Source: Bosea beijingensis (GTDB taxonomy: Bacteria; Pseudomonadota; Alphaproteobacteria; Rhizobiales; Beijerinckiaceae). From it: a stretch of 64,000 bases of DNA. Where the stretch lies: NCBI RefSeq assembly GCF_030758975.1, contig NZ_CP132359.1, positions 1,752,811 to 1,816,810 of the forward strand, written 5' to 3'. The notes under the pieces were generated by a model that was given only the letters and a program-made list of their open reading frames with translations, did no database searches and was not told where the DNA came from. Shown in pieces: positions 5,204 through 29,498 of this stretch. The stretch's first letter is position 1. Every line of letters starts with the position of its first letter. The translations under genes were made by a program, and so were the position numbers.

Positions 5204-6034
5204 TCATTCGCTGTAGACGCCCTGCGCGAGCAGGGCCTTGGACGAGAAGTCGCGGCCATGGCCGCGCGTGAAGAAGCCGGCCGAGACGCCGCCATCGGCC
5301 ATGATCAAAGCGCCGTTGACGTAGCTGGCGAGATCCGAAAGCAGGAACAGGCAGACCGAGGCGACCTCGGAGGGCTGGGCCAGCCGCCCGAGCGGCGTGC
5401 GATCCTCCATCACGCCCGAGACGAAGCTCTCGGGGATGCCGCGGCGGATCATCGGGGTATCGGTCGCGCTCGGGCCGATGCAGTTCACCCGGACGCCATG
5501 CGAGCCCCATTCGACCGCAAGGTCGCGCGTCAGCCCGACGACGCCGGCCTTCGAGGCACAGTAATGCGCGCGGCCGGACTGGCCGCCGAGCGAGGAGACC
5601 GAGCCGATCGTGACGATGGCGCCGCGCCCGCGTGCGACCATGCGCCGGCCCGCTGCCTGGCACGAATAGAAGGTGCCGGAGAGATTGACGCCGATCACCG
5701 CTTCCCAGCTTTCCGCGGCGAGTTCGGTCGCCGGGGCAGGGCGGGAGATGCCGGCCGCCGTGATCAGCCCTTCGAGCGGGCCGAGATCGCGCTCGATCGC
5801 TTCGACCGCCGTCTCGGTGGCGGCCGGATTGCGCACGTCGAAGCTGGCCGCGAGCGCACGGGCGCCGAGCGCCTCGATCTCGCGAACCGTGTCGGCAGCG
5901 CCTTGCTCGTTCGCATCCGCAATGGCAACGGCCGCCCCCTCACGCGCCAGAGCCAGCGCACATTCCCGCCCGATGCCTGAGGCGCCGCCGGTGATCAGGA
6001 CGGTCCGGCCGGCAAGCCCGAGATTTGCGCCCAT
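5204..6034 (-). CDS. SDR family oxidoreductase (second of three)
   Basis: A 276-residue classical short-chain dehydrogenase. TGGASGIG is near residue 15, and TAAGIS stands where most family members have NNAG. The catalytic pair is in the SVSS segment and YCASK. About 25 extra residues follow the usual end (GFFTRGHGRDFSSKALLAQG). It is 24 bp downstream of the GST gene and 13 bp upstream of the next SDR, so it is almost surely co-transcribed with both. The altered NAG motif and the tail separate it from its neighbour, so the two are unlikely to be simple duplicates. Confidence 0.9.
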   Translation of the reverse strand: MGANLGLAGRTVLITGGASGIGRECALALAREGAAVAIADANEQGAADTVREIEALGARALAASFDVRNPAATETAVEAIERDLGPLEGLITAAGISRPAPATELAAESWEAVIGVNLSGTFYSCQAAGRRMVARGRGAIVTIGSVSSLGGQSGRAHYCASKAGVVGLTRDLAVEWGSHGVRVNCIGPSATDTPMIRRGIPESFVSGVMEDRTPLGRLAQPSEVASVCLFLLSDLASYVNGALIMADGGVSAGFFTRGHGRDFSSKALLAQGVYSE

Positions 6035-6058
6035 CGCCGCCTCCCGCTCGCGTTGGCC

Positions 6059-6679
6059 TCAACCCAGCTTCTGGCCGCCGAAGGCGGGCCGCTCGCCAAT
6101 CTTGGCGAACCAGCCAGCGGCCTGCGGCCGGCCCTCGCGCCAGTTCAGGTCCGCGAAGCGCAGGTCGAGATAGGCCAGAGCGCAGTAGAACGTGATCGTG
6201 CCGATATCGACGCGCTCGCCGAAGCCGGCGGCCTTGCCCTCGATCAGGTCGAGCGTGGCATGAACCTTGGCGAGCTGCCCGTCGATCCAGCGCTGCCAGC
6301 GCTGCTCCTCGCTGCGCAGGAGGCCCTCGTAACGCGCCGCCAGCGCGGCATCGAGCAGCCCGTCGCCATAGCTTTGCTCGCTGAGCGCGTTCCAGCGCGT
6401 CTTGGGCTCGTCCGGGAACAGCGAGCCGCCGCCAAGCCCGTCGAGATATTCGCAGATGACGCGGCTGTCGGCGATCGTCATGCCGTCGTCGAGCAGCAGT
6501 GTCGGAACCTGGCCGAGCGGGTTGGTCTTGATGATGTTCTGCTCGCGCGCCAGCGGGCCGCCGGCCTTGTACTCCTGCGAGACATCGAGCATCTCGATCC
6601 GGTCGATAAGGCCGAGCTCGGCGGCGGCGATCCGGACCTTGAGCACGAAGGGCGAGGTGGTGGATTGGTAGAGTTTCAT
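6059..6679 (-). CDS. Glutathione S-transferase family protein
   Basis: A 206-residue GST. The thioredoxin-fold half starts MKLYQSTTSPFVLKVRIAAAELGL with a Ser/Pro active-site region, then NPLGQVPTLLLDDG and the GSH-contact ADSRVICEYL. A helical C-terminal domain follows. It sits between the flavoenzyme (13-bp gap) and an SDR (24-bp gap). With maiA, this makes two GSTs in one operon. The SDR plus GST pairing recalls glutathione-dependent aromatic ether cleavage, but nothing in the sequence proves that; a generic detoxification role is equally possible. Confidence 0.88.
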   Translation of the reverse strand: MKLYQSTTSPFVLKVRIAAAELGLIDRIEMLDVSQEYKAGGPLAREQNIIKTNPLGQVPTLLLDDGMTIADSRVICEYLDGLGGGSLFPDEPKTRWNALSEQSYGDGLLDAALAARYEGLLRSEEQRWQRWIDGQLAKVHATLDLIEGKAAGFGERVDIGTITFYCALAYLDLRFADLNWREGRPQAAGWFAKIGERPAFGGQKLG

Positions 6680-6692
6680 CGGAATGCCTTTC

Positions 6693-8396
6693 TCAGTGCG
6701 GCAGGCGGTCGGTCTCGGCGGCGAGCGCCCGCCCGGCGATGAAGCCGAAGGTGAGCGCGGGGCCGAGCGTGATGCCGGCGCCCGGATAGGCGCCAGCCAT
6801 GATCGAGTTCATGTCGTTGCCGCAGGCATAGAGCCCGGCGACGGGCCGCTCGTCGCGGCTAAGGACGCGCGCCTGGGGATCGCAAGTCAGGCCGGTCGCG
6901 GTGCCGATATCGCCGGGCCAGACCTTCACGGCATAGAAGGGCGCGGTCTCGATCGGCCCGAGGCAGGCATTGGGCTTGTGGTTGGGGTCGCCGAGGTAGC
7001 GGTTGTACTCACTCGAGCCCTTGCCGAAGGCGGCATCCGTGCCCGAGCGCGCCGCAGCGTTCATGCCGGCGACTGCTTCAGCCAGCGCCCCGGCCGGCAC
7101 GTCGATCCGTCCGGCGAGCGCCGCGACGCTTTCTCCCTCAAATAGATAGCCGGCTTCGACGAAGGACTTCGGCGTCTTCAGGCCGGGATGGACGAGGCCG
7201 AGACCGTATTTGCGCAGGAAGTCACTGTCGCAGACAAGGAAGGCGGGCACGGCACCGCTGGCGTGCATCGCCTCGACGAAGCCGTGATAGGAGGTCGCCT
7301 CGTTGACGAAGCGATGGCCCTTGCCGTCGACCGCGATCAGGCCGGGCTTGGCGCGATCGAGGATCAGATGCGGGAATTGCACCTCGCTGCCGTCGGACTT
7401 TTTTAGCACCGAGACCGGTGTCCAGAAGGCCGCGCCGATATTGTCGTCGCGCAGGGCGCCGCCCGCCGCGAGGCCGAGAGCGATGCCGTCGCCGGTATCG
7501 GTCTTCGGCGCCATCGAGCGGTGGACCTCGGCATGCGGCATGTGCTCGCCGCGCATCGCCGCATTGGCCGGGAAACCGCCGCTTGCCAGCACCACGCCGC
7601 GCCGCGCTCCGATGCGCCGCTCACCCTGCGGCCCCTTGACGGTGACCCCGACGACAGTGCCGTCCTTGAGGATCAGCGCCCCGGCCGGTGTCTGCGTGCG
7701 GATGACGACACCCGCCTGTCGCGCCGATTTCAGCAGGCGTCCGGCCAGTGCATTGCCCATCAGAAGCCGCGCGCCGCGCGGATGGCGCAGGCGGTCGAGG
7801 CCGTACTGGATCAGGAGCTTCGCGCTGTGCCTGAAATTTGCGAGGCTGCGGAAGCGGCCGACCAGCGCGTCGATATCCTTGCGATTGACCATCATGCCGC
7901 CGAGCACGGTGAATTCCTTCAGCGGCGGGCGCAGCAAGGCGAAATCGGCGCCGAGTTCATTGCCGTCATACGGCGCGGGGTCGATCGTGCGGCCGCCCTT
8001 GGAGGCGCCGGGCTGTTCCGGCTGGTAGTCCGGCGAATAGGCGCGCGCCTCGAATTTCAGTGCCGTCTCGCGCTCGAAGAAGCGGACCATCTCCGGCCCG
8101 TTGTCGAGGAAGGCGCGCATCAGATCCGGCCGCAGACGGTTGCCGAGCACGGCTTCGAGATAGGTCATCGCCGCTTCGCGCGTATCGGCATGGCCGGCCT
8201 TGGCGGCATGCGGATTTTCCGGCACCCACACGGCGCCGCCCGAGACGGCGGTGCTGCCGCCGACATATTCGCTCTTCTCGATCAGCAGCACGTCGAGCCC
8301 GGCCTTGGCGGCGGTGATCGCGGCCGACATCCCGCCGGCGCCGGAGCCGATCACGACGACGTCGCGGATTTCGTCGAAGCTCTCGCTCATCGCCAT
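6693..8396 (-). CDS. FAD-dependent dehydrogenase of the 3-ketosteroid delta-1-dehydrogenase / fumarate reductase flavoprotein family
   Basis: A 567-residue flavoenzyme. The dinucleotide-binding GSGAGG is at residues 17-22, followed by GGSTAVSGG and the C-terminal FAD loop near residue 535. The four residues known to matter in 3-ketosteroid delta-1-dehydrogenase have apparent counterparts: Tyr124 in SPDYQPE, Tyr370 in ATSYHGF, and Tyr537 with Gly541 in AYPGAG. This suggests desaturation next to a ring ketone. No steroid genes are present, so a smaller cyclic ketone is more likely. It lies 4 bp after an SDR and 13 bp before a GST. Confidence 0.88.
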   Translation of the reverse strand: MAMSESFDEIRDVVVIGSGAGGMSAAITAAKAGLDVLLIEKSEYVGGSTAVSGGAVWVPENPHAAKAGHADTREAAMTYLEAVLGNRLRPDLMRAFLDNGPEMVRFFERETALKFEARAYSPDYQPEQPGASKGGRTIDPAPYDGNELGADFALLRPPLKEFTVLGGMMVNRKDIDALVGRFRSLANFRHSAKLLIQYGLDRLRHPRGARLLMGNALAGRLLKSARQAGVVIRTQTPAGALILKDGTVVGVTVKGPQGERRIGARRGVVLASGGFPANAAMRGEHMPHAEVHRSMAPKTDTGDGIALGLAAGGALRDDNIGAAFWTPVSVLKKSDGSEVQFPHLILDRAKPGLIAVDGKGHRFVNEATSYHGFVEAMHASGAVPAFLVCDSDFLRKYGLGLVHPGLKTPKSFVEAGYLFEGESVAALAGRIDVPAGALAEAVAGMNAAARSGTDAAFGKGSSEYNRYLGDPNHKPNACLGPIETAPFYAVKVWPGDIGTATGLTCDPQARVLSRDERPVAGLYACGNDMNSIMAGAYPGAGITLGPALTFGFIAGRALAAETDRLPH

Positions 8397-25795: not shown

Positions 25796-26511
25796 TCCGC
25801 CAATTCCGCTTTCTGCGCCAAAAACATTCTGTCGGCTTCGCCGCCCATAGGCAGCGAAGCCGAGTTTTCGGCCAATTCCGTTAAGGGATCGTTAAGCCGC
25901 TAAAATCCGCTGAAAAGCAGATCTCTGAATCGGGCCATCCCTGCGCCGTTGGGCGGCCACAGGAATGTTGGAATTGCGGTGCATGTCAACGCCAGGACGA
26001 TCGCGACCGGCATTTTTCTGTGCAGCGTGGCGATCAGGACACGGTCCGGACGGGCGCCGACATGATGCGAAAAGCCGTGCGCGCGTGTTGCCCCTCGCCA
26101 AGACGCCGACGATTACCCCTCCCTCTTGGCGAAGGCACGCCTCGTCAGCCAGCGGGTATCTTTCTTCTGGCGATCGTGGAGTGGCGCCTCCGTCAACCGT
26201 CCGGCTCAGCCGGCCAAACAAACGACCTCAGACACGAACCATATCGAACTCGCAGGGGACACCTGCGGGAACCCTTTGGTGCGCGTTCAGCTCGCCAAGA
26301 CCGGGGCCTCTGCCGTCCTTCATCTCACCGACTATGCCCGCGTGCTGACCACCATCGGCACCGCCTCTTGGTTCGCGCCTCGTTCCGGCTCGGCGCGTTG
26401 TGCCCTGCGGCTTTGCATTTGCATTTTACGACAATGGTCCTGTCGTTGGAGATGTGTACAGAGTGCAAATGGCGCCCGGAACCGGCTGCCGCATTGCAGA
26501 GAATCGTCTAC
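25796..26511. other. Gap between rlpA and the methyltransferase: rlpA promoter region, then probable gene debris
   Basis: 25796-25960 is rlpA upstream DNA holding the CtrA-like site. From about 25960 to 26511 open frames exist, but none has a convincing start or ribosome site. A stretch translated from about 26235 to 26390 (GNPLVRVQLAKTGASAVLHL, then TDYARVLTTIG) looks protein-like and then loses frame, which suggests a decayed gene. A 9-bp hairpin (TCGCCAAGA/TCTTGGCGA) is at 26095-26132. This is the probable left side of the inserted segment. Confidence 0.45.
25881..25895 (-). promoter_or_regulatory. CtrA-type box upstream of rlpA
   Basis: On the minus strand the sequence is TTAACGATCCCTTAA, an exact fit to the CtrA consensus TTAA-N7-TTAA including the C after the first half. 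It lies 161 bp upstream of the chosen rlpA start and 86 bp upstream of the earliest possible one. CtrA is the cell-cycle master regulator in this class and often controls division genes. Its use here is inferred. Confidence 0.55.
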
Positions 26512-27903
26512 ATGTTCGGTGCAATGGGCATGTTGTCGTCGGATCGGGTGATCTCTCTTTTTTCGGGGGCAGGCGGCTGCTCCCTCGGCTTTGCGGCTGC
26601 GGGGGCGAAGCCTACGGTCGCCGCAGACATCGACGCTGATGCGTGCGAGACCTATCGTAGGAACCTCGAGGTCGAGTGCGATGAGCTTGACCTTTCTTCC
26701 GATGCGGCCGTTGCGCGCATCATGGGTCGTGCTGGACCTACTGCGCCATTTGCCATTGTCGGCGGCCCGCCCTGTCAGGGCTTCAGCACGGCTGGCCCTC
26801 GGAACGCATCCGACCCACGCAACCGGTTGATCTTCAACTACCTGGAAATCCTACGTCGGCTGCAACCTCGCTGGTTCCTTTTCGAGAACGTCGAGGGCAT
26901 CCTCACATCCAACGGTGGGCGGGACATCGTGCGTCTGGCGACGGAACTGCGGGCAATGGGCTACGCCTTTCAGCTAGAGAAGGTGAATTTCGCCGGATAC
27001 GGGCTGCCTCAGACTCGGAAGAGAGTTTTGGTGGTCGGGAATCGCCTAGGGCACCGGTTCGAACTGCCTGCGCCGGAATTCTCATTCGATAGCGGCAAGG
27101 CGAAGTCCTACAGCCGCTTGCCGTCGGCCCCGTCCCTTCTCGATTCCATCCGCGACTTGCCTGCACCGGGGACGCTGGATCGCCCACTGCCGTATGACGA
27201 TGGCACTCCCTCGCCTTTCGCCACCACTCTCCGGGCAGCCAGTGGCATGGTATCGCAGCACTTCGTTCCAAAACGGTCCGACGCTGCGGCAGTTGCCCGC
27301 CACCTGCTACCGGGGCAGACGATGAAAGACCTCCCCGAGGAGTTGCAGCACGAGAGTTGGCGCAAGCGCGCCAACCGCCGCGTCAGCGATGGAACGCCTA
27401 CCGAGAAGCGTGGAGGGGCTCCTGCTGGCTTCAAGCGGCTTAAAGGTGAATTGAACGCGCTTACTATCACGAGCGCAGCTCCGAGGGAGTTCATCCACCC
27501 CACAGACGACCGAACCCTGACACTACGGGAGTGCGCACGGCTGCAATCCTTCCCAGACGAGTTCACATTTGCCGGAAAAGCGGTGAGCGTGGCTCGGCAA
27601 ATCGGTAACGCAATTCCCCCGCTGGCGGGTCGCGTCTTGGCCGAGATGCTGATGCGAGAGGACGGTCGAGCTGGAGGCGGCTCGGGCTTACGCCATGGTG
27701 TCTCACCGGGGCTCTTCGGCTTCCACCTGACTGACGCAGGGGCGATGAGCCCTGCACTTGCGCAAACCGCTTCTGCGCTCCAGGCCTTGATGGACCAGGA
27801 TCACGAGTTGCCCCTAGCGAGAGCCATCAACAAGGGGCAGCCCCTCCTTGACCTGATGAATCAAGATCGCGAATTGCCCCTGGCCGGGGTCATCAATGGC
27901 TAA
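26512..27903 (+). CDS. DNA (cytosine-5-)-methyltransferase of a type II restriction-modification system
   Basis: Modifies cytosine in a specific target to protect host DNA. The 463 residues carry the ordered C5-MTase motifs: I FSGAGG (17-22), IV PCQ with the catalytic Cys (87-89), VI ENV (125-127), VIII QTRKR (167-171), IX RECARLQSFPDEF and X GNAIPP (365-370). The target-recognition region lies between VIII and IX. After motif X come 93 unusual residues ending in two 22-residue repeats. The frame is open to 26020, but motif I placement favours 26512 or 26530. It overlaps the nuclease gene by 8 bp and GC is visibly below that of its neighbours. Confidence 0.92.
   Translation: MFGAMGMLSSDRVISLFSGAGGCSLGFAAAGAKPTVAADIDADACETYRRNLEVECDELDLSSDAAVARIMGRAGPTAPFAIVGGPPCQGFSTAGPRNASDPRNRLIFNYLEILRRLQPRWFLFENVEGILTSNGGRDIVRLATELRAMGYAFQLEKVNFAGYGLPQTRKRVLVVGNRLGHRFELPAPEFSFDSGKAKSYSRLPSAPSLLDSIRDLPAPGTLDRPLPYDDGTPSPFATTLRAASGMVSQHFVPKRSDAAAVARHLLPGQTMKDLPEELQHESWRKRANRRVSDGTPTEKRGGAPAGFKRLKGELNALTITSAAPREFIHPTDDRTLTLRECARLQSFPDEFTFAGKAVSVARQIGNAIPPLAGRVLAEMLMREDGRAGGGSGLRHGVSPGLFGFHLTDAGAMSPALAQTASALQALMDQDHELPLARAINKGQPLLDLMNQDRELPLAGVING
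27778..27900 (+). repeat. Tandem 66-bp (22-residue) duplication at the methyltransferase C-terminus
   Basis: Copy 1 (27778-27843) encodes LQALMDQDHELPLARAINKG plus two residues; copy 2 (27844-27900) encodes LLDLMNQDRELPLAGVING. The shared pattern is LxxLM(D/N)QD(H/R)ELPLAxxIN. Nucleotides have diverged at third positions, so the duplication is not recent. The last bases of copy 2 include the start codon of the nuclease gene. Confidence 0.75.
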
Positions 27904-28963
27904 ACCACCACTGGAACTCCAAACGCTGGTAACGGCAGCTCGCACGCTGGGTTCGGGCCGAACCGCGCTCTATCTTCCTGACGCAGAGCTGCTCAGCTTG
28001 ATTGGCCTGATCTTGGCTGACCTCGGAAAGAACGCCTTAGCACAGCAGTTGGGAGACGGCGGAGCGGTAGGCGGGAGCTACTTCCAACGGCCTCTCGCTT
28101 CCTTCGAAGTATCGCCGTTCGGGGCCAGGGACTTCTGGGAGGTTCTCCTGAGGTGCCAACAAGAGGTGGAGGACTTCGCGACCTACTTCCGTTGCCTGTG
28201 CGAAATCCATAAGCGCCGTCGCAAGTATGACGTGATCCTTTCGAAGCAAGCCTTCCCCACCAGCGACCAAATCGCCCCCCGAGCCTTGCTGGAGTTCGGC
28301 CTCTCCGATTCATCGGCCCTCGCGACCTGGCTGACCTGGCGCAAGTGGTTGTTTGATCTGGATAACCGTGCTGGCCAGGAGACCGGCTACCTATTCGAAC
28401 CGATCCTTTCGGCCGCATTGGGGGGAGTTCCATTCTCGCCCAGGCGCAGCCCTATCAAGCGTGCCGAGCGCCCGACCGACGGCCGCCAAGTCGATTGCAT
28501 CGTTGGCTGCGACGCTTATGAATTCAAAATCCGCGTTACCATCGCCGCAAGCGGCCAGGGGCGGTGGTCGGAAGAGTTGGCCTTCCCGGTCGATTGCAGG
28601 GCTTCGGGCTTCAACCCAATATTGGTCGTCTTGGACCCGACACCAAACCCGAGGCTGACCGACTTGTCCGCTGCCTTCGTTGCGGCTGGCGGGTCAGTTT
28701 ATATTGGCCAGGATGCGTGGGCACACCTCGAACAGAGGGCTGGTCCAACTATGGCGGTGTTCCTTGAGACCTATGTCCGGCGGCCCGTCGCCAATATCTC
28801 GGATCTGATGCAGGCACCTGCCAACATGACCTTACGCTCTGTGCCGGGTGGCGATGTTTGCTTAACGTTCGATCTTCCTGCGGGAGCTTACGAACGGCGC
28901 ATCGTCAGAGCCGCTAGCGTCCTCATTCAAGAAGACCCCGATGAGGATGATCTAGAGCCCTGA
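27896..28963 (+). CDS. Probable type II restriction endonuclease, PD-(D/E)XK-like
   Basis: A 355-residue protein of no family I recognise by name. Its ATG lies inside the methyltransferase end (ATGGCTAA overlap), the classic arrangement of a coupled restriction partner. A nuclease core is visible: Glu168 in GYLFEPIL, Asp200 in RQVDCIVG, and Glu209-x-Lys211 in YEFKIRV, which matches the acidic / D / ExK layout. The N-terminal half is helical and charged. Function is inferred from partner and motif; the recognition sequence cannot be deduced. An unrelated accessory protein is the alternative. Confidence 0.72.
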   Translation: MAKPPLELQTLVTAARTLGSGRTALYLPDAELLSLIGLILADLGKNALAQQLGDGGAVGGSYFQRPLASFEVSPFGARDFWEVLLRCQQEVEDFATYFRCLCEIHKRRRKYDVILSKQAFPTSDQIAPRALLEFGLSDSSALATWLTWRKWLFDLDNRAGQETGYLFEPILSAALGGVPFSPRRSPIKRAERPTDGRQVDCIVGCDAYEFKIRVTIAASGQGRWSEELAFPVDCRASGFNPILVVLDPTPNPRLTDLSAAFVAAGGSVYIGQDAWAHLEQRAGPTMAVFLETYVRRPVANISDLMQAPANMTLRSVPGGDVCLTFDLPAGAYERRIVRAASVLIQEDPDEDDLEP

Positions 28964-29319
28964 GTGTGTGTGCCTAGTCGGTGCTGCTGGAACGCGCATG
29001 TCAACCGGCGATGCCCATCTTGGCCAAGCACGCTATGACCTTGACGTTTGGCTAGACGGGACGGGCGGCGAGGAGCTGCTGATGCAGCCTCCTTACGAGC
29101 TGCGGGAGTGAATCGTTTTTGCTCGCATGAACAAGACCGGAGCGGGCATGACGACCCAACGACCGCCGAGCCGTTCTAGGAATCGCTTTTTTGAGCCCCG
29201 AGAAGCACCGATTCTTGGGGGTAGGCTTGGGTACATTCTTAGAGACTTCTTGGGTCTACGTTGAAATAGGCCCGATCCAACCCATTGATTTATAGATATT
29301 AATTAAACGGTGGAATTTC
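28964..29319. other. Non-coding right end of the restriction-modification insert
   Basis: 356 bp of lower-GC DNA between the nuclease gene and the 3' end of tRNA-Ser. A 37-codon ATG frame at 28998-29111 (starts MSTGDAHLGQARYDLDVWLD) could be a gene fragment, but it has no visible ribosome site. The last 80 bases are AT-rich. No integrase and no direct repeat of the tRNA end were found here. Confidence 0.4.
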
Positions 29320-29409
29320 TGGCGGAAGGGGTGGGATTCGAACCCACGGTGGGCTTGCACCCACGGCGGTTTTCAAGACCGCTGCCTTAAACCACTCGGC
29401 CACCCTTCC
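29320..29409 (-). tRNA. tRNA-Ser (anticodon UGA)
   Basis: The cloverleaf reads on the minus strand from 29409. The acceptor GGAAGGG pairs with CCCTTCC, the anticodon loop is CTTGAAA between GCGGT and ACCGC (anticodon TGA), and a long class II variable arm GTGGGTGCAAGCCCAC and the T arm GTGGG-TTCGAAT-CCCAC follow. Discriminator G and an encoded CCA end at 29320. The 3' end faces the restriction-modification segment, which suits a genomic-island insertion site. Confidence 0.95.
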
Positions 29410-29498
29410 GGTGCGCGTTCATTGCCGGTCGGAGCGCCGATTTGCAAGCGGAAGATCGCGATGCGGCCCGGCCGCGGAGCGGAGGCGGGATACAGCCG

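Follow-up and report, generated by a model that had tools for sequence, protein, structure and literature searches.

The DNA analyzed here (the window, 64,000 bp of the Bosea beijingensis contig NZ_CP132359.1) contains, beside a tRNA-Ser gene, a two-gene cassette that we consider likely to be an ApaLI-family restriction-modification operon (type II) whose probable recognition site is GTGCAC. The first gene (26524–27903, plus strand) encodes a C5-cytosine DNA methyltransferase of 459 amino acids (aa), and the second (27896–28963, plus strand) its partner, a putative ApaLI-family type II restriction endonuclease (REase) of 355 aa. By the coordinates of their open reading frames (ORFs), the two genes overlap by 8 bp on the plus strand (27896–27903, ATGGCTAA). 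Downstream of the REase gene come 356 bp with a GC content of 54% and then, on the opposite strand, tRNA-Ser(TGA) (29320–29409, minus strand), whose 3′ end faces the cassette. The cassette as a whole (26375–29319, no strand assigned) has a GC content of 60.2% versus 66.2% for the entire window, and among 2945-bp pieces sliding along the window (n = 611, step 100) only the piece at 26401, which lies over the cassette, is equally low. An earlier note on this DNA, made from the letters alone, had described the overlapping pair, its lower-GC setting and the neighboring tRNA 3′ end, and our data bear out all three. Judged from sequence, adjacent methyltransferase and endonuclease genes correspond to the layout of a type II restriction-modification system.

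The methyltransferase probably starts at the ATG at 26524, judged against a relative with 84% identity (P0123). Queried from 26512, it matched PF00145 (E 1.9e-59) as well as the PADLOC model MTase_II (E 2.5e-94), and its PDB matches reached E 7.9e-31, the best being the HaeIII methyltransferase (1dct). The protein carries the motif GGPPCQG with Cys84, and P83-C84-Q85 is invariant in all 35 rows of an alignment (A2, with near-duplicates among its rows) whose members are 42–84% identical to the window copy, some of them named from Acetobacter, Gluconobacter, and Klebsiella. Profile, PDB matches, and the GGPPCQG motif are thus shared with C5-cytosine DNA methyltransferases such as M.HaeIII; unlike these, the window enzyme has the family-specific stretch GQTMKDLP...DGTPTEKRGGAP.G.KRL, a C-terminal motif LTDA.GMSPAL.T, and a repeated tail. 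The GQTMKDLP...KRL stretch precedes the final catalytic motifs, in the part of the protein that holds the target region in C5 methyltransferases, and by eye is strongly conserved in the 35 rows, which is compatible with one site common to the whole family but short of demonstrating it. At the C-terminus, a 15-residue tail occurs twice (LMDQDHELPLARAIN and LMNQDRELPLAGVIN, 11 of 15 positions identical, 27787–27900), and the closest listed relative, P0123, is without the second copy. The REase start codon falls at the end of this second copy.

The partner protein (P0001), for which the earlier note recognized no named family, is by its sequence a probable member of the ApaLI family (Pfam PF09499, RE_ApaLI). 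Its core (residues 197–281) matches PF09499, weakly with the older 189-position model (PF09499.16, 16.3 bits against a curated cut-off of 25); the newer PF09499.18 has a precomputed assignment to P0001 itself, and 50 of 55 relatives match PF09499 at E ≤ 0.01. The partner has at least 2551 homologs. The PD-(D/E)XK layout proposed earlier held up well: E168 (codon at 28397), D200 (28493), E209 (28520), and K211 (28526), the last two forming E209-F-K211, are invariant in all 55 aligned relatives, and the predicted structure has a PD-(D/E)XK fold with EcoO109I (1wte) as the nearest known structure. Outside the matched core, the prediction gives a mostly helical N-terminal half plus C-terminal strands. 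Sequence searches of the PDB with P0001 and with its 55-row profile returned no match, and searches of NCBIfam and PHROGs gave no family for it.

ApaLI itself, from Acetobacter pasteurianus, is paired with a C5-type methyltransferase. The window system shares with ApaLI-family REases the PF09499 core, the PD-(D/E)XK residues, a C5-methyltransferase partner, and, probably, the GTGCAC site, but its REase is longer (~355 aa), matches the older model only weakly, and was likened to the family by profile. Comparison of the P0001 profile with a 115-aa piece of a short-form PF09499 protein (locus L003) gave a probability of 65%. The gene for this short form (L003 1501–2112, in a 1.4-Mb genome) includes a TAG codon in frame, and an adjacent ORF resembles, by eye, an adenine-type (DPPF) methyltransferase.

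The same gene order, methyltransferase then REase, recurs in a Phenylobacterium metagenome-assembled genome (MAG; L002), in the congener G448 (L152), and on three virus-collection contigs (L165, L166, and L167), in keeping with the compact type II island originally proposed. The Phenylobacterium genes overlap by 8 bp (6001–6008), and the REase there is split into two ORFs (6001–6525 and 6531–7064). In G448, whose methyltransferase is 55% identical to the window copy and whose REase has 358 aa, the overlap is 8 bp (1459–1466) with a GTG start, or the genes stand one base apart with the next ATG. With starts as set by the ORF tool, the virus-collection pairs overlap by 8 bp (L165, 1280–1287), 11 bp (L166), and 4 bp (L167). 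In one REase relative (P0085), the protein is joined to a mismatch endonuclease of the Vsr type (PF03852); Vsr repair enzymes occur together with C5 methylation. The long REase is nonetheless sparsely distributed: among 67 genomes of the genus it was found in two (the window genome, G000, and G448), in G000 only among 61 relatives, and in G000 only among 385 genomes of the class, numbers too small for correlating site depletion with REase presence. PF09499.16 matched 2 of the 385 class genomes, with G000 not among them. A scan of genome contigs found one REase relative, in the Phenylobacterium MAG; tblastn with the partner found none in phage records and three partial matches (28–36% identity) in plasmids.

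Genome composition points to GTGCAC, the ApaLI site, as the recognized sequence, a reading that we hold to be rather probable in spite of the contrary signals weighed below. The window contains no GTGCAC versus 6.0 expected from a maximal-order Markov estimate, and the whole of G000 (5.56 Mb) contains 106, the lowest value per genome and per Mb among 41 genus genomes (127–662 in the others). This corresponds to 19 per Mb against a median of 75 per Mb, with the sizes of genomes other than G000 rounded for the density figures. For the reversed word CACGTG, G000 ranks eighth from the low end. When 864 kb of G000 were compared with 720 kb of the congeners G021 and G026, CAGCTG was the only 6-mer depleted more strongly than GTGCAC. 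The shortage is about tenfold in the high-GC DNA of G000: 5-kb pieces with ≥64% GC held 6 sites in 774 kb, versus 23 in 340 kb of G021, 26 in 315 kb of G026, and 11 in 360 kb of G004. Lower-GC DNA, which in G000 is probably younger, held 14 sites in 90 kb (5 in 60 kb of G021, 0 in 5 kb of G026, and 2 in 40 kb of G004).

At aligned loci other than those of G004 and the restriction-modification loci themselves, none of 15 GTGCAC sites of relatives was kept in G000 (14 distinct sites, since one place in G020 enters through two loci), whereas the comparison words CTGCAG, GAGCTC, GTCGAC, GACGTC, and TGCGCA together were kept at 484 of 955 sites. In the reverse direction, three GTGCAC sites of G000 fell in aligned stretches and none was kept in the relative. 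The relatives with well-matching flanks (G017, G020, G021, G026, and G029) hold 325–385 GTGCAC per genome, and among these and G000 the count is low only in G000. Two further sets of counts are uninterpretable without relatives: those of the Phenylobacterium MAG (369 GTGCAC, 624 CACGTG) and of three virus records (1, 2, and 0 GTGCAC versus 4, 4, and 0 of the control). Within G000, at least 14 GTGCAC sites cluster in ~94 kb at ~4.43–4.52 Mb of contig C1, and a 20-kb piece of this region (L067) has 61.5% GC and 5 sites, which suggests a recently acquired element.

Several observations weigh against GTGCAC or against its loss being due to this system. G448, with the homologous pair, has 427 GTGCAC in 3.8 Mb, the third highest density of the 41 genomes; its pair may be a recent arrival, and a transposase-like ORF, recognized by eye only, lies beside it. 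Conversely, G004 lacks the system yet is low in GTGCAC (127 in the whole genome; its high-GC pieces are given above). Among the aligned sites of the control word CACGTG, only 1 of 9 was kept. Deamination of a methylated fourth base would turn GTGCAC into GTGTAC, and the density of this word (both strands) is indeed highest in G000 of the 41 genomes, with a ratio of 1.83 in the sample (P 0.015, or 0.07 after Markov correction); because only 1 of the 15 lost aligned sites had turned into GTGTAC, this excess is weak evidence for fourth-base methylation and we do not rely on it. Finally, CAGCTG, a PvuII-type site, is depleted more strongly than GTGCAC in the G000 sample (CAGCTG counts of 38 versus 143 in the comparison with G021 and G026), was kept at 0 of 66 aligned sites, and occurs twice in the window against 16.4 expected.

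The signals from CAGCTG and G448 would fit an active ApaLI-family pair in which the long (~355 aa) branch has another specificity, such as CAGCTG, and the distance of P0001 from the short ApaLI model (the 16.3 bits and the 65% profile comparison) could be read the same way. We regard this as improbable. Congeners that lack the REase are low in CAGCTG as well (62 in the whole genome of G002, 158 in G025, 324 in G017, and 404 in G004), and GTGCAC is abundant in the five flank-matched relatives and low only in G000. The avoidance of CAGCTG in G000 and in part of the genus is a second avoidance, alongside that of GTGCAC. There is a similarly small chance that the long ApaLI-like branch, which numbers thousands of proteins, forms a subfamily of its own, with additional parts that confer a specificity other than GTGCAC; if so, the label "ApaLI family" would conceal at least one unassigned site. 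Quite unlikely, in our judgment, is a decaying or silent cassette, with the methyltransferase alone or neither gene active and the depletion stemming from an earlier system or from other causes. The split REase of the Phenylobacterium MAG indicates that loss, or sequencing error, occurs in the family, and G004 shows that causes of low GTGCAC other than this system exist, but in the window both genes are open and full length, with residues that are invariant in the alignments, and the pair is probably active.

We therefore favor an ApaLI-family operon directed at GTGCAC. The first gene would supply a C5-cytosine methyltransferase that marks the recognition sites of the host, and the overlapping second gene a PD-(D/E)XK endonuclease that would cut the same sites if unmarked, for example in incoming phage or plasmid DNA. 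Long residence of the cassette may then have led to the loss of most GTGCAC sites from the older, GC-rich host DNA. Computation establishes the families, the catalytic residues, the pairing of the genes, the left junction, and the depletion, whereas activity, the exact site, the choice of methylated cytosine, and a causal role of this system in the depletion are inferences. The earlier note had ranked the pair first among its candidates for an undescribed specificity; neither the family assignment nor the depletion, for all its contrary signals, supports that ranking, and the pair is better seen as a good example of an already named type, not an unknown kind, with a specificity that is likely known. 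It also yields a testable GTGCAC prediction for a large ApaLI-family branch, most members of which lack a name or are annotated as hypothetical. More generally, site depletion across congeners can suggest specificity without experiment, and our data expose the conflicting signals that the method can produce.

The cassette is evidently acquired, as judged from the GC minimum, the left junction, and the tRNA gene at 29320, and a Bosea-like lineage probably gained it horizontally, at the point where a small resident gene breaks off sharply (26374/26375). The foreign segment had been placed from 25960 onward, too far to the left: 25800–26052 matches the Bosea-type left flank of congener tRNA-Ser regions, and 26088–26374 (plus strand) is Bosea-type resident DNA with the ~47 first codons of the small gene (~107 aa), 88.5% identical to a stretch of G455 that includes this gene (L168). 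The usual ATG of the gene reads ACG in the window (protein relatives P0242–P0246), and names among the relatives of this small gene point to Bosea as the host genus. At five genus loci with a full-length relative of the gene, matching ends at 26374 in four and at 26373 in one, and the cassette therefore begins inside it. The right edge lies somewhere within 28964–29319, and 28950–29325 had no match in any of the loci retrieved. The absence of an integrase or control protein stood as far as the ORF list for 25900–29320 goes, in which none was recognized by eye; family-library scans covered the two main ORFs, and a homolog search covered 26126–26551.

Relative to the left-flank genes, tRNA-Ser with its 5′ flank is inverted compared with 15 of 16 congeners (26050–29470 against L035–L050), which leaves two explanations: inversion of a segment that holds both tRNA-Ser and the cassette, or a flip of the tRNA before or at acquisition. 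The only congener with the orientation of the window is G004, which is without the cassette. G000 and G004, which share this orientation, are also the two lowest genomes in GTGCAC. In G004 this may be coincidental, or a cassette since lost may have left its mark; tblastn of both restriction-modification proteins against locus L050 found no trace. Integration directed by the tRNA is not demonstrated, because the tRNA 3′ end has no duplicate in the cassette, nor in the window beyond chance. Searches of the cassette for tandem repeats and att sites were negative except for a single direct repeat of 12 bp. Its copies, at 26278–26289 in the truncated resident gene and at 29410–29421 just outside the tRNA-Ser 5′ end, flank the cassette, possibly by chance. 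DNA downstream of tRNA-Ser varies among congeners, with the next well-matching block ~1.2 kb away in G020 (L036) and ~7.6 kb away in G021 (L037), and this spot may therefore be an insertion hot spot.
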